Of a DNA stretch of 64,000 nt, positions 2,975 to 54,495 are shown piece by piece. Under the pieces are notes generated by a model. The model was not told where the DNA came from. It searched no databases and saw only the letters and a program-made list of their open reading frames with translations. The translations under genes were made by a program, and so were the position numbers. Numbering within the stretch: the stretch's first letter is position 1; each line of letters opens with the position of its first letter. Location of the stretch: positions 1 through 64,000 of the forward strand of contig NZ_NKXO01000014.1 in assembly GCF_002843425.1 (NCBI RefSeq). The letters run 5' to 3'. Source of the DNA: Raineya orbicola (GTDB lineage: Bacteria > Bacteroidota > Bacteroidia > Cytophagales > Thermonemataceae).

Positions 2975-3667
2975 ATGGGAAAACTCACGAAAAATAGAAA
3001 GGCGGCACTCGCTAAATACGATAATACTAAAAGCTACTCTTTGGTGGATGCGGCAAAAATCTTAAAAGACATCACTTTCACCAAGTTTGATGCTTCTGTG
3101 GATATTGATATTCGCCTTGGCGTAGATCCTCGTAAGTCAGACCAAATGGTGAGAGGGGTTGTTGCCTTGCCTCACGGAGTAGGAAAAGATGTACGCGTAC
3201 TTGTACTCTGCCCGCCTGATAAGGAAGAAGAAGCCAAAGCCGCTGGTGCCGACTATGTTGGTATGGACGAATATATCACCAAAATTGAAGGTGGTTGGAC
3301 GGATATTGATGTAATTATCACCACCCCTACGGCTATGGCAAAAGTTGGACGTTTGGGAAAAATCTTAGGTCCTCGCGGACTGATGCCTAATCCCAAGTCT
3401 GGTACCGTAACTATGGAGATTGGTAAGGCTGTCAAGGAAGTAAAAGCAGGTAAAATTGATTTCAAAGTGGATAAAACAGGTATCATTCACACTTCCATTG
3501 GCAAAATCTCTTTTTCTCCTGAAAAAATTGCTGAAAATGCAATGGAACTCATCAATGTAGTGCAAAAGCTCAAGCCTGCTTCTGCAAAAGGTACTTACAT
3601 TAAGTCTATATCGCTTTCTTCTACGATGAGTCCGGGTGTTAGTATTGATAAAACTACTGTAATCTAA
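2975..3667 (+). CDS. rplA: 50S ribosomal protein L1
   Basis: Large-subunit protein of the L1 stalk that helps release deacylated tRNA; in many bacteria it also represses the L11-L1 transcript. Length is 230 residues, and family features include [13 protein letters not shown], the segment [20 protein letters not shown], and a C-terminal end rich in Ser. Its TAA stop shares one base with the rplJ start (TAATG), so the two are translationally coupled, which leaves no room for a separate L10 leader in front of rplJ. Confidence 0.98.
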
Positions 3668-47855: not shown

Positions 47856-47864
47856 ATTTTTTTG

Positions 47865-47937
<73 letters not shown>

Positions 47938-47950
47938 TTCAAAAGTGTTG

Positions 47951-47981
47951 CAAAGGTACTGCTTTTTTCTGTATCTGCAAA
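47951..47981 (-). promoter_or_regulatory. promoter of tRNA-Thr
   Basis: On the minus strand TTTG (47981-47978), 19-bp spacer, TACCTTTG (47958-47951). Transcription would begin just before the mature tRNA end. Confidence 0.85.
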
Positions 47982-48057
47982 TTTTTTTCAAAAAAAATTT
48001 ATGATTTTCTCAAAAAAATTTGGAAATGCTTAATTTTGAGGCTCAAATTTAGCAGTT

Positions 48058-49494
48058 ATGAAACAAACCATTAAAGATTTGTTGCAAATTCCTATCCAAA
48101 ACCAAGAAGTAAGCGTAAAAGGGTGGGTAAGAAACGAAAGAGATAGCGGCGAAGTTGCTTTTATTGTGATGAACGATGGCTCTACGCCTAAAACGTTGCA
48201 AATTGTTGTAGATTTCAATAAAATTCCTCGTGAGCAAGTAGCACCCATCAAGGTAGGAGCTTGCCTGCACGTAAAAGGAAAGCTCGTAGCTTCAGCAGGT
48301 AAAGGACAAGACCGAGAGGTACTTGCTGAAAGTATCGAAATTTACGGCTTGGCAAACCCCAACGAATATCCTTTTCAACCTAAAAAACATAGCTTGGAAT
48401 TTGTGCGTGAAAATGCTCATTTGCGTAGTCGTACAGCAACTTTTGGAGCGGTGTTTCGTATCAGGCACACTTTGGCATATGCTATTCACAAGTATTTCAA
48501 CGATAATGGCTTTTATTATGTCCATTCGCCTATCATTACTGCCTCCGATGCCGAAGGAGCAGGTGAAATGTTTCAGGTAACTACTTTACCTTTGCAAAAC
48601 ATTCCTAAAAATGAGCAAGGAGAAGTAGATTTCAAGCAAGATTTCTTTGGCAGAAGTACAAATCTGACCGTTTCGGGGCAGTTGGAAGCAGAACTTATGG
48701 CTTTGGGATTGGGCAAAGTTTATACGTTTGGTCCTACGTTTCGTGCTGAAAATTCTAACACCACTCGCCATCTTGCCGAATTTTGGATGATTGAACCCGA
48801 AATGGCTTTTTACGAATTACAAGACAATATGGATTTGGCAGAAGATTTTGTCAAGTATGTTATTGGTTATGCTTTGGAGCATTGTGCTGAAGACTTGGAC
48901 ATTTTAGAAAAAAGGCTTTTAGACGAAGAAAAAAGCAAAAAACAAGAGGAAAGAAGCCCAATGCCACTTCTGGAAAAGTTGAAATTTGTAACACAAAATC
49001 CTTTTGAGCGTCTTACTTATACCGAAGCGATTGAGATTTTGCTTGCCTCGCCTTATCACAAGAAAAAGAAATTTCAGTTTGAAGTAAAATGGGGCATAGA
49101 TTTACAAAGCGAGCACGAAAGATATTTGGTAGAAAAACATTTCCAAAAGCCTGTAATTCTTACAAATTACCCCAAGGAAATTAAGGCTTTTTATATGAAG
49201 CAAAATGAAGATGGTAAAACCGTGAGGGCTATGGACGTGCTTTTCCCAGGTATAGGCGAAATCATTGGAGGCTCGCAAAGAGAGGAAAACTATGAAAAGC
49301 TCAAAAACCGAATGGAAGAGTTGGGTATTTCTACGCAAGAACTTTGGTGGTACTTGGATACACGCAAATTTGGAACTGCACCGCATAGCGGTTTTGGATT
49401 AGGTTTTGAGCGTCTTGTGCAGTTTGTTACAGGAATGGGCAATATTCGTGATGTAATTCCGTTTCCTCGCTATCCCAAAGGGGCAGAGTTTTAA
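48058..49494 (+). CDS. asnS: asparaginyl-tRNA synthetase
   Basis: Class IIb aminoacyl-tRNA synthetase, 478 residues. The N-terminal OB-fold anticodon domain begins with [19 protein letters not shown]; class II motif 2 appears as [19 protein letters not shown] and motif 3 as [19 protein letters not shown]. Asn specificity, not Asp, is supported by the whole sequence pattern ([11 protein letters not shown] at the end). It is a single gene between tRNA-Thr on the other strand and hisC. A TAATTTTG at 48031-48038 could be a -7 element but no matching -33 box is present. Confidence 0.96.
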
Positions 49495-49529
49495 TTTTTT
49501 AGTGAAACACGTAAGAATTTTGCTTTTGA

Positions 49530-50597
49530 ATGTTTATTCAACATCTTTTACGCCCTCATATTGCAAAATTAGAGCCTTACTCTTCGGCTCGTGATGAGTA
49601 TAGCGGAGAGGAAGGAATCTTTTTAGATGCGAATGAAAATCCTATTGGGTCGGTTACGGCGGCTATGTATAACCGCTATCCCGACCCGTACCAGAAAAAA
49701 ATTAAAGAAAAATTAGCCGTCATCAAGGGAGTAAAACCTGAAAATATTTTCTTGGGTAATGGTAGTGATGAAGCGATTGATTTGCTGATTCGGGCTTTTT
49801 GCGAGCCTTACAGAGAAAGTATCCTGATTATGCCTCCCACTTATGGAATGTATGAAGTAAGTGCCAATATCAATGCCGTAGCTGTGCAAAAAGTGCCTTT
49901 GGATACTAATTTTCATATTGATTTAGAAGCAGTAAAAAAAGCAATTACGCCACAGACTAAAATTATATTTATCTGTTCGCCTAATAATCCGAGTGGCAAT
50001 TTGCTTTCGCAAGAGGCAATTACTGAAATTTTAGAAACTTTCAAAGGAATTACACTCATAGATGAAGCATACATAGATTTTTCTCCACAGGCTTCGTGGC
50101 TACCAATGCTTGAAAAATACCCTCGTATGGTGCTTATTCAAACTTTTTCGAAGGCTTGGGGACTGGCGGCTTTACGTTTGGGAATGGCTTTTGCTCACTC
50201 TGAAATTATTGCCGTACTCAATAAAATCAAACCGCCTTACAATATCAGCAAAACTACGCAAGATTTAGTTTGGGATAGCTTGCAATATGAACGCTTCAAA
50301 AATGAAATGGTAGAGCGAATTTTAGAACAAAGAAAGTTTTTGGAAAAAAAACTTACCGCATTTGATTTCGTTGAAAAAATTTATCCCTCTGATGCCAATT
50401 TCTTGCTTGTAAAAATGCGAAATGCACAAAATATATTTGAGTATTTGCTTTCGCAGAAAATTATTGTTCGCAATAGGGTAAAAGTTGCGGCGGGGTGTTT
50501 GCGTATCAGCGTAGGAACAAAAGAAGAAAATCAGCAATTGCTTCAAACTTTACAAGAGTATGTGAATATAAATTCTAAAAAAATTCGTTTGTGGTAA
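49530..50597 (+). CDS. hisC: histidinol-phosphate aminotransferase
   Basis: PLP enzyme of class I/II fold, 355 residues, transaminating imidazole acetol phosphate in histidine synthesis; some family members act on aromatic amino acids. PLP Lys208 is in QTFSKAWGLAALRLG, and LDANENPIG, FLGNGSDEAIDLLIRAF and CSPNNPSGN are typical. It stands outside any his operon in this window, so a different aminotransferase role is possible, but the sequence resembles HisC. The remnant of an IS1-type transposase begins 75 bases downstream. Confidence 0.92.
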   Translation: MFIQHLLRPHIAKLEPYSSARDEYSGEEGIFLDANENPIGSVTAAMYNRYPDPYQKKIKEKLAVIKGVKPENIFLGNGSDEAIDLLIRAFCEPYRESILIMPPTYGMYEVSANINAVAVQKVPLDTNFHIDLEAVKKAITPQTKIIFICSPNNPSGNLLSQEAITEILETFKGITLIDEAYIDFSPQASWLPMLEKYPRMVLIQTFSKAWGLAALRLGMAFAHSEIIAVLNKIKPPYNISKTTQDLVWDSLQYERFKNEMVERILEQRKFLEKKLTAFDFVEKIYPSDANFLLVKMRNAQNIFEYLLSQKIIVRNRVKVAAGCLRISVGTKEENQQLLQTLQEYVNINSKKIRLW

Positions 50598-50671
50598 AGA
50601 TTGTATGATATTTTAGTAAAAGACAAAGAGGGCGTATTTTTGTAATATGTGCGAAGTATTCATTCACAAAA

Positions 50672-50895
50672 GTAAACTGCCCTCATTGTCAATACAAGGG
50701 TAGTGAAAAATGATCATAAAAAAAGAAGCAAAACAAAATTTTTTTGTGTAAATTTTGTGGTAAGCAGTTTCAACAGGCTTATCGGTACGAGGAGCAGACC
50801 CTAAAATTAAACATTTGATAGTGAGTGTGTTACTAATAAATAGTGGCACACGAGATATTGCAAAGGTCTTACAAGTCAGTCGTGTTGCTTTTAAT
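50672..50895 (+). pseudogene. IS1-family InsA-like transposase remnant, frameshifted
   Basis: Read in three frames, the segment encodes the zinc-finger VNCPHCQYKGSEK (50672 on), then [14 protein letters not shown], and after a further shift [19 protein letters not shown] followed by VLQVSRVA, the usual InsA order of zinc ribbon and helix-turn-helix. At least two frameshifts and a stop break it, so it cannot be functional. Neither InsB nor the terminal inverted repeats are visible. It runs into the 5' region of gmhA. The rest of the 50598-50904 spacer shows nothing further. Confidence 0.75.
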
Positions 50896-50904
50896 ATTAC
50901 TACA

Positions 50905-51486
50905 ATGGTAGATTTTATCAATTCAGAATGGCAAGAAGCACAAAAAGTGCTTAAAGATTTTTTTCAGAATGAAAAGAATTTGCAGGCTATTGCTCAAACC
51001 GCTCAAGTAATGATAAATACCATTCAGCAAGGAGGGAAAATAATAGCTTGTGGTAATGGGGGGTCGCATTGCGATGCAATGCACTTTGCAGAAGAATTGA
51101 GCGGAAAGTATCGTGAGAATCGTCCTGCTTTGCCTGCACTGGCTATTTCGGATAGCGGACACATCACTTGCGTAGGCAATGATTACGGCTTTGAGCAAGT
51201 GTATGCACGCTTTATAGAAGCCTTAGGAAAAGAAGGCGATGTTTTGGTGGCAATTAGCACAAGTGGTAATTCGCCTAATGTACTGAAAGCTGTTGAGGTG
51301 GCTCGTCAAAGAGGCATTATCAGCATAGCCCTTACGGGCAAAGATGGCGGAAAATTAGCTCAAATGGCTGATTACGTTATTTGTGTGCCGCATTTTGGCT
51401 ATGCCGACCGTATCCAAGAAATTCATATCAAAATCATTCACATTTGGATAGGCTTGATAGAGCAAGGAATTTTCGGCAAAAAATAA
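50905..51486 (+). CDS. gmhA: sedoheptulose-7-phosphate isomerase (phosphoheptose isomerase)
   Basis: SIS-domain enzyme making D-glycero-D-manno-heptose 7-phosphate for LPS core or surface heptose. 193 residues from ATG 50905; [20 protein letters not shown] gives the sugar-phosphate loop and metal-binding His60/Glu64, and [15 protein letters not shown] is the second SIS loop. An in-frame reading extends 30 codons upstream into the transposase remnant (starting at 50815); I reject it because those residues are from InsA, but the fusion may be translated if that start is used. No other heptose genes adjoin. Confidence 0.93.
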
Positions 51487-51499
51487 TTTTTTGTTGAAA

Positions 51500-52603
51500 A
51501 TGAGTGAGTTCAGAGATAAAGTTCAGTTGGTTCATAGCGGCAAAGAATATTTTGAAACGCTCAAAAATATACTTCAAGCGGCTCGCTATTGCATACATCT
51601 GCAAACCTACATCTTTGAAGAAGACGAAACAGGCAAAGAAATTGCCGAAATTCTTATCCAAAAAGCCCAAGAAGGCGTAAAAGTATGTGTATTGGTAGAT
51701 GATTTTGGCTCAAAAGAGCTTAGTAAAAAGTTCAAAAAAAATTTACTTTCGCAAGGGGTACAAATTCGCACTTTTTCTCCTTTTCAGATTTTCAGACTGC
51801 GTTTCGGCAGAAGGTTACATCAGAAAATAGTGGTTTCTGATATGAAGTTTGCCCTCATTGGAGGTATCAACATTGCCAACAAATATGCAGGAGTAGGTAG
51901 AAAAGAGTGGTTGGACTTTGCCGTACTTTTGGAAGGAGAAATCGTGAGACAATGTTTTTGGATTTGTCAGCAGTTTTGGAATAAAAAATATCAACGAGAT
52001 GTTTTTATTCAAAACAATTACATTTTTCTTTTACAACAAGATTTTATCAGAGGTAAAAAAGAAATCGCCCGAGCTTACCGAGAGGCTATTGCCAAAGCTC
52101 AAAATGAAATTTGGATAGTAGCCAGTTACTTTTTGCCCAATAAATCTTTACGTCGATTGTTTATTCGCAAGGCAAAGGAAGGCGTAAAGATAAAAATTTT
52201 ACTTTCAGCGATTTCAGATGTGCAGTTTTTCAAAAAAGCCACGGAGTATTTGTATGCAGAACTTGAAAAAGCAGGCATACAAATTTATGAATATTTGCCC
52301 AGTGTAGTTCACGGCAAAGTGATGCTTGTAGATGATACTTGGGCTACCGTTGGCTCGTATAATCTGAATGCTATTAGCGAGTATATGAGTGTAGAAATGA
52401 ATGTAGCCACTACGGAGCCTAACTTTATTCAGCTTTTACGAAAAGATTTGCAAAAAACATTTACTGCTGAAAGTGTTTTGGTGCAATATGCCTACAAGAG
52501 GCGTAATATTTTTACACGCTTTTATTTTTGGCTTATTCGTTTTGTTTTGAAAGTGGCTATTCGTTTTTTACGAAAAAATAGGCAGAGCTATTTGCGTGAA
52601 TAG
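51500..52603 (+). CDS. cardiolipin synthase-like phospholipase D family protein
   Basis: 367 residues with two PLD motifs: His107-x-Lys109-x4-Asp114 (HQKIVVSDMKFALIGG) and HGKVMLVDDTWATVGSYN near residue 270. This is the ClsB-like layout, without N-terminal membrane helices, and with a basic, amphipathic C-terminal end (RFVLKVAIRFLRKNRQ) that should bind membrane. It probably condenses phosphatidylglycerol into cardiolipin. ATG 51500 was chosen; two TTG codons precede it in frame. It follows gmhA after 13 bases and is likely in its transcript. Confidence 0.9.
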   Translation: MSEFRDKVQLVHSGKEYFETLKNILQAARYCIHLQTYIFEEDETGKEIAEILIQKAQEGVKVCVLVDDFGSKELSKKFKKNLLSQGVQIRTFSPFQIFRLRFGRRLHQKIVVSDMKFALIGGINIANKYAGVGRKEWLDFAVLLEGEIVRQCFWICQQFWNKKYQRDVFIQNNYIFLLQQDFIRGKKEIARAYREAIAKAQNEIWIVASYFLPNKSLRRLFIRKAKEGVKIKILLSAISDVQFFKKATEYLYAELEKAGIQIYEYLPSVVHGKVMLVDDTWATVGSYNLNAISEYMSVEMNVATTEPNFIQLLRKDLQKTFTAESVLVQYAYKRRNIFTRFYFWLIRFVLKVAIRFLRKNRQSYLRE

Positions 52604-53658: not shown

Positions 53659-54495
53659 CTAAATAGCATTTAACTGAAACTTAAAGTAGCTTTTGAGCAG
53701 AAGTGTAAATTTATGTAAATCGGGTACGCGTATGCGTTTTTGCATAATAGTTTCGGCAGGTTGGGCTTTGATTTTCTTGAAAAGCGTAGTGTAATACACA
53801 TAAGCCAAATATACTCCCATTTTGGCTCCTTTGGGCAGTTGTACAATGCCCTTATAGGCTTCGTCAAAATCTTTTTGTATATCGGCTTCTATGAGTTTTT
53901 TGGCTTTTTCATCAAATTTTTCAAAATTGACTTCGGGGAAATAAGTTCTACCTCTTTCGTAATAATCGCTACGCAAATCGCGTAAAAAGTTGATTTTCTG
54001 AAATGCCGAACCCAAACTGCGAGCAGGCTCTTTGAGTTTTTCATACATTTCGTTATTTCCCTCACAGAAAACACGCAGGCACATAAGCCCTACCGCTTCG
54101 GCAGAGCCGTAAATGTATTCTTTGTATTTGGAATCGTTGTATTCTTTGAAGTACAAATCCATTTCCATACTATGCAAAAACGCTTCAATGAGTTCTTGTT
54201 CTATTTGGTACTGATTTACAACGAGTTGAAAAGAATGTAAAACGGGATTGAGGCTAATTTTTTCTGCAATAGCATCAAAAGTATCTTTACGAAAACGCTC
54301 TAAAAGTTCTTTTTTGTTGTGCTGGTGAAAGGTATCAACAATTTCATCGGCATAGCGTACAAAGCCATAAATAGCATAAATAGGCAAATGAAAACGTTTA
54401 GCGAGTGTTTTTATGCCCAAAGTAAAAGAAGTGCTATAATGTTGGGTAATAAGTTTGCTACATTTGAGTGTAGTAGTATTGTATAATTCAAGCAT
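53659..54495 (-). CDS. phytoene/squalene synthase family protein
   Basis: 278 residues of the trans-prenyl head-to-head condensing family. First aspartate motif Asp50-x3-Asp54 (YADEIVDTF), second motif DLRSD in FLRDLRSDYYERGRTYFPE. Size and sequence fit CrtB-like phytoene synthase, which makes the carotenoid backbone from two GGPP, but the presence of a squalene synthase role cannot be excluded. It lies at the end of a likely operon with an unknown 102-residue protein and a TPR protein; no other carotenoid genes are near. A 92-bp spacer follows before the coiled-coil gene. Confidence 0.9.
   Translation of the reverse strand: MLELYNTTTLKCSKLITQHYSTSFTLGIKTLAKRFHLPIYAIYGFVRYADEIVDTFHQHNKKELLERFRKDTFDAIAEKISLNPVLHSFQLVVNQYQIEQELIEAFLHSMEMDLYFKEYNDSKYKEYIYGSAEAVGLMCLRVFCEGNNEMYEKLKEPARSLGSAFQKINFLRDLRSDYYERGRTYFPEVNFEKFDEKAKKLIEADIQKDFDEAYKGIVQLPKGAKMGVYLAYVYYTTLFKKIKAQPAETIMQKRIRVPDLHKFTLLLKSYFKFQLNAI

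Follow-up and report, generated by a model that had tools for sequence, protein, structure and literature searches.

The gmhA locus of Raineya orbicola

The window analysed here, a stretch of 64,000 nucleotides of the Raineya orbicola contig NZ_NKXO01000014.1, carries on its forward strand, in this order, a class II aminoacyl-tRNA synthetase gene (48058..49494), hisC (49530..50597), the remnant of an IS1-family element (50587..50886), gmhA (50905..51486) and a gene for a phospholipase-D-like protein (pld, 51491..52603). The first of these, with Pfam domains tRNA-synt_2 and tRNA_anti-codon, is read as asnS; hisC is its next neighbor both here and in the congener G001. The hisC product, histidinol-phosphate transaminase, scores above the TIGR01141 cut-off, and its C-terminus was compared with that of the G001 protein. 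The gene pld, with Pfam domain PLDc_2, adjoins gmhA also in G001 and in a second congener, G003. Both of these genomes share the order gmhA-pld-52607-crtB with R. orbicola (the gene at 53659-54495 is read as crtB), and hisC is not found upstream there. A tRNA-Thr gene on the reverse strand (47864-47937) overlaps a 70-aa forward-strand ORF (47862-48074), which is spurious.

The product of gmhA, D-sedoheptulose-7-phosphate isomerase, is 193 aa long and matches two equivalog families over its full length, NF001628 with 289.4 bits (cut-off 265) and TIGR00441 with 232.5 bits (cut-off 209.45). It is 87% identical to the protein of G001, 85% to that of G003 and 71% to that of a third congener, G002. 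The dN/dS ratios, 0.064 against G001 and 0.060 against G003, are approximate, as dS exceeds 1, and indicate that the gene is under strong purifying selection. Among the best 80 of 587 database loci, the closest named gmhA locus is that of Raineya sp. SKYG86 (L043). For two partners in the heptose pathway, the best matches in the genome stay under the curated cut-offs: rfaE domain I reaches 326.6 bits against a cut-off of 345, and GmhB 93.8 bits against 149.6. Compared to known GmhA, the R. orbicola protein is a full-length enzyme with the same start as in G001 and G003; the difference is confined to the upstream DNA.

An IS1-family remnant between hisC and gmhA

Alignment and blast comparison with other copies in the same genome show that the remnant, on the forward strand, consists of the left terminal repeat and about 300 of the 777 bp of the element, and that the right part is gone. 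Its left edge is the terminal repeat at about 50587 (GTTTGTGGTAAAG, versus GGTTGTGGTAAAG in intact copies), and its right edge, 50886, is the point where identity to the intact copies ceases. The terminal repeat (50587-50597) overlaps the end of hisC and provides its last two residues, LW, together with the stop codon TAA (50595-50597). A sequence-only reading of this DNA had recognized an IS1-type remnant, and the homology to the IS1-family copies of the genome is far above chance (E 9.7e-106); the left edge was, however, placed at 50672, inside the actual span. The same reading called the insertion ancient, which agrees with the degree of divergence. Identity to the intact copy on contig C1 is 89% for the remnant (own-genome blast, 50589-50886), compared to 97% for the copy on C23 and 95% for the copy on C28, so that, of these four copies, the remnant has decayed furthest.

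The former transposase start codon is found at 50647..50649 on the forward strand, and the transposase frame in the remnant is disrupted upstream by indels and stop codons. With the right end absent and the frame broken, 50587-50886 is not a complete element with an open transposase, and its own transposase cannot mobilise it.

The own-genome search listed at least 20 matching IS pieces, a lower bound, as 40 of 78 first-look candidates were scored. Among the pieces listed, three are full-length (C1, C23 and C28). The C1 and C23 copies are 777 bp long, with a single 235-aa transposase ORF, inverted ends and identical 8-bp direct repeats on the two sides (CATTTTTT, AGAAAATA). The C1 transposase scores 199.4 bits with NF033558 (cut-off 100) and matches the Pfam families DDE_Tnp_IS1 (PF03400, 97.4 bits) and Zn_ribbon_InsA (PF03811, 31.5 bits). 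A DDE transposase with an N-terminal zinc ribbon, which defines the IS1 family, is thereby present in the intact C1 copy, and the remnant aligns to the first ~300 bp of this copy; terminal inverted repeats and short direct repeats, the other family trait, are seen in C1 and C23, and the window copy retains the left end only. The intact copies are in all these features, including the 8-bp target duplication, like single-ORF members of the IS1 family, whereas the window copy differs from the family in being reduced to its left 300 bp, which contain indels and stop codons. One such member is ISCaa1 of Amoebophilus asiaticus, tabled with 1 ORF, 759 bp and 232 aa (PMC3196728, excerpt).

Translation start of gmhA

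An ORF that begins at TTG 50815 runs through ATG 50905 in frame to 51486. As the sequence-only reading had pointed out, gmhA thereby acquires a potential 30-codon extension on the forward strand (50815..50904), in which the last 24 codons of the IS (50815-50886) are followed by 6 junction codons (50887-50904). The extension is probably not translated as such. No ATG lies in frame ahead of 50905 within it, and a Pfam search with the 30 residues alone gave no match at E<=1. By our reading of the motif, the extension comprises the first two helices of the IS1 helix-turn-helix and no more than the start of the recognition helix.

In each of the three congeners searched, which are other species than R. 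orbicola and which lack the remnant, the start of gmhA is the ATG that corresponds to 50905, preceded by 1, 4 and 12 open codons in G001, G003 and G002, respectively; comparison with such relatives had been proposed as a check in the sequence-only reading. More broadly, 103 of 109 gmhA loci (29 loci from one search and the best 80 of 587 database loci from another, with one contig counted twice, as L015 and L043) have an ATG no more than 5 codons from the position equivalent to 50905. In F. johnsoniae, A at positions 0, -3, -6, -12 and -13 is reported to favor initiation (PMC6847099, excerpt). ATG 50905 has four of these five, TTG 50815 and GTG 50821 have two each, and GTG 50827 has one; this score is a weak guide, since the starts of hisC and asnS themselves reach just 2 and 3. 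Folding energies at the candidate starts, -5.4 to -6.4 kcal/mol, do not separate them. Congener starts and the better initiation context agree with the start that had been expected earlier, and gmhA most likely begins at the conserved ATG 50905.

The agreement in frame between the remnant and gmhA needs no special explanation, because 18 of the 109 loci have open in-frame stretches of at least 30 codons ahead of the homologous start, and 7 of the 109 have an ATG, GTG or TTG 30 or more codons ahead of it; the IS homology is beyond chance and the frame agreement is not. The 24 IS-derived codons have dN/dS of 0.28-0.36 against two intact copies, based on 8-9 changes only, too few to show selection; mild constraint on these codons is compatible with such values. 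A domesticated fusion of IS and host gene would be expected to have a frame common to relatives or under selection, and the three congeners have neither the extension nor an IS match. Among the papers listed by a literature search for in-frame fusions of IS and host genes, none dealt with this by its title. The case cautions against taking an in-frame remnant of a mobile element for a domesticated fusion.

A break in gene order, with IS fragments on either side

What precedes gmhA differs among the four Raineya genomes: hisC in R. orbicola, an MPAB/Lcp-type gene in G001, in G003 a gene that resembles a methylase (a DNA methylase by reading alone), and in G002 a divergent gene. Blastn of the IS against the gmhA stretches of the three congeners gave no match. 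In G001, a VWA-domain gene comes after asnS-hisC in tail-to-tail orientation, its stop codon overlapping that of hisC, and gmhA is located elsewhere. In R. orbicola, the VWA gene is carried by contig C8, where an internally deleted piece of the same IS starts 3 bp after the stop codon of this gene. This fragment covers IS positions ~366-319 and 52-1 (C8:79345-79444; L148, G000:C8:76000-80295, 3346-3445), with its left end facing away from the VWA gene. The same IS thus lies at the same spot on either side of the broken hisC-VWA adjacency. By our own arithmetic, given the ~20 pieces listed for the 3.07 Mb, a particular gene end would lie no more than ~10 bp from an IS piece with a probability of the order of 1e-4. 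The orientation of the C8 fragment is the one that IS-IS exchange predicts, which for orientation alone would occur by chance in one case of two.

We consider it probable (about 0.8) that the remnant is a scar left by a lineage-specific rearrangement of the chromosome at a decayed copy of the IS1-family element, that gmhA is read from its own ATG 50905, and that TTG 50815 is a functionless by-product. The IS would have inserted where the stop codons of hisC and the VWA-domain gene meet tail to tail. Exchange with another copy, or a deletion adjacent to the IS, would then have parted hisC from the VWA gene, and the left end of the IS, on the hisC side, would have been joined to a block starting 18 bp ahead of gmhA, with loss of the right part of the IS. 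As a result, the gmhA-pld block would now stand behind asnS-hisC, with 18 bp between the IS and the ATG; gmhA would be translated from this conserved ATG, and the in-frame reading from the TTG would have no function of its own. The ancestral hisC-VWA order is suggested by G001 together with the IS coincidence, since in G002 a large distance separates hisC from the VWA gene and no hisC ortholog was found in the 92%-complete assembly of G003.

Rearrangement scars mediated by IS elements are a known kind of event. The present case resembles them in that IS fragments mark the two ends of a disrupted gene order, and differs in that both fragments are partly deleted, so that the exchange is not directly readable; the mechanism may have been IS-IS recombination with later deletions, or IS-adjacent deletion. 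Contig C8 ends 851 bp beyond the IS fragment. The DNA there, which holds a small ORF, is at most a candidate for the reciprocal product, and no former neighbor of gmhA was found when it was read for one. In R. orbicola, contigs C5 and C24 hold homologs of the genes that precede gmhA in G001 and G003, and none of the IS pieces listed (40 of 78 candidates scored) is on either contig. At the end of C5 (L149, G000:C5:1-6000, positions 1-849), a transposase-like ORF is followed by an ORF that reads like the tail of an outer-membrane receptor; these ORFs sit upstream of the MPAB/Lcp-type gene that adjoins gmhA in G001.

The locus is a small example of how IS elements reshape gene neighborhoods, with one IS family at both ends of a broken order, an IS piece that donates a stop codon to hisC, and a gmhA gene that retains no more than 18 bp of its native leader. 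The remnant is most probably a rearrangement scar of an ordinary kind, and it leaves the knowledge of GmhA and of IS1 unchanged.

Transcription of gmhA

From the IS breakpoint to the gmhA ATG there are 18 bp (50887..50904, forward strand), the upper limit of what is left of the native leader. The proposal that the insertion replaced the region upstream of gmhA thus holds, in that the IS took the place of whatever preceded the gene. With so short a leader, transcription of gmhA must start upstream, either as read-through from asnS-hisC or at a promoter remnant within the IS.

The second of these, a captured IS promoter, is a choice within the explanation by a rearrangement scar and compatible with it, and we regard it as a tentative option. 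A motif scan located, at 50635..50642 on the forward strand, the -7-like element TATTTTTG of a Bacteroidota-type promoter belonging to the IS. It matches exactly the -7 part of the Bacteroidota consensus TTTG/TANNTTTG (PMC6847099, excerpt), its spacing would place transcription initiation close to the former transposase ATG at 50647, no other site with at most one mismatch was found by the scan between 50643 and 50905, and the shortness of the native leader likewise speaks for it. The -33-like triplet is TAG rather than TTG. TTG is found in intact C1, but the same TAG occurs in intact C23, and we rejected the triplet as an argument against the promoter; the -33 motif is itself reported to be weak (same excerpt). 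The sole full -33/-7 match in 49300-50910 lies elsewhere, inside hisC at 50432 (TATATTTG, spacing 22), which also counts against the IS promoter, although one match in this interval is unsurprising given 17 full matches on the forward and 22 on the reverse strand of the whole window. A leader starting at the IS promoter would be 258 nt long, compared to a mean of 33 nt given for F. johnsoniae in the excerpted text of PMC6847099. Read-through is as likely, as hisC and gmhA run in the same direction with 307 bp between them, and the terminator scan found no forward-strand terminator in this interval.

Generic scans are not informative here: the sigma-70 scan gave 8 promoter-like sites versus 5.0 expected, and the terminator scan gave 2 terminator-like sites versus 1.0 expected, at 50700-50680 on the reverse strand and at 50936-50952 on the forward strand, inside gmhA. 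Sequence alone does not separate read-through from the IS promoter.

Other explanations of the junction

The IS might have entered between hisC and gmhA when these were already adjacent, and later lost its right part with no larger rearrangement. The copies on C4, C35 and C75, which have also lost internal or right-hand parts, show that such losses occur in this genome. We nonetheless rejected simple insertion as improbable: hisC stands beside gmhA in none of the three congeners, and the VWA gene, the neighbor of hisC in G001, bears the same IS at its matching end in R. orbicola.

Translation from TTG 50815, or from GTG 50821 or 50827 in a shorter version, would produce an IS-GmhA chimera, alone or alongside the normal protein. 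The frame is open and in register with gmhA, and TTG is a permitted start. The sequence-only reading had allowed for such a chimera with a DNA-binding-like N-terminus, and here the evidence goes the other way: the extension is absent in each of the three congeners searched, where gmhA has its conserved start, it has no Pfam match, its start contexts are weaker than that of ATG 50905, and comparable open stretches are common upstream of gmhA. We rejected the helix-turn-helix-GmhA chimera and consider its synthesis very unlikely. The combined scenario, in which the old transposase promoter drives the displaced gmhA and a minor N-extended GmhA is also made from TTG 50815, appears even less probable.

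Least probable of all is an artefact in which a short-read assembler joined two loci via the IS repeat: at least five contigs begin or end in this IS (C7, C36, C42, C47 and C56) and the R. orbicola SPSPC-11T draft (3,070,213 bp, 104 contigs) was assembled from MiSeq reads, but at a reported depth of 250x (PMC5982127, excerpt), and the remnant is 11% diverged from intact C1, with private indels on both sides of the IS part of the junction.

Further IS1-family copies

The C28 copy (G000:C28:1161-1926), although full-length, is frameshifted and, unlike C1 and C23, has no matching flanking repeats; it may be the mark of a further rearrangement. The sequence to the right of the C35 copy, AAAAATTT, agrees at 7 of 8 bases with that to the left of the remnant in the window (50579-50586, AAAAATTC), which may be chance in A+T-rich DNA, though it would fit the halves of one insertion. 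A related IS1-family element with 66-68% DNA identity is found in Raineya sp. G003, in four near-full-length copies (C55, C74, C99 and C118) and many fragments.
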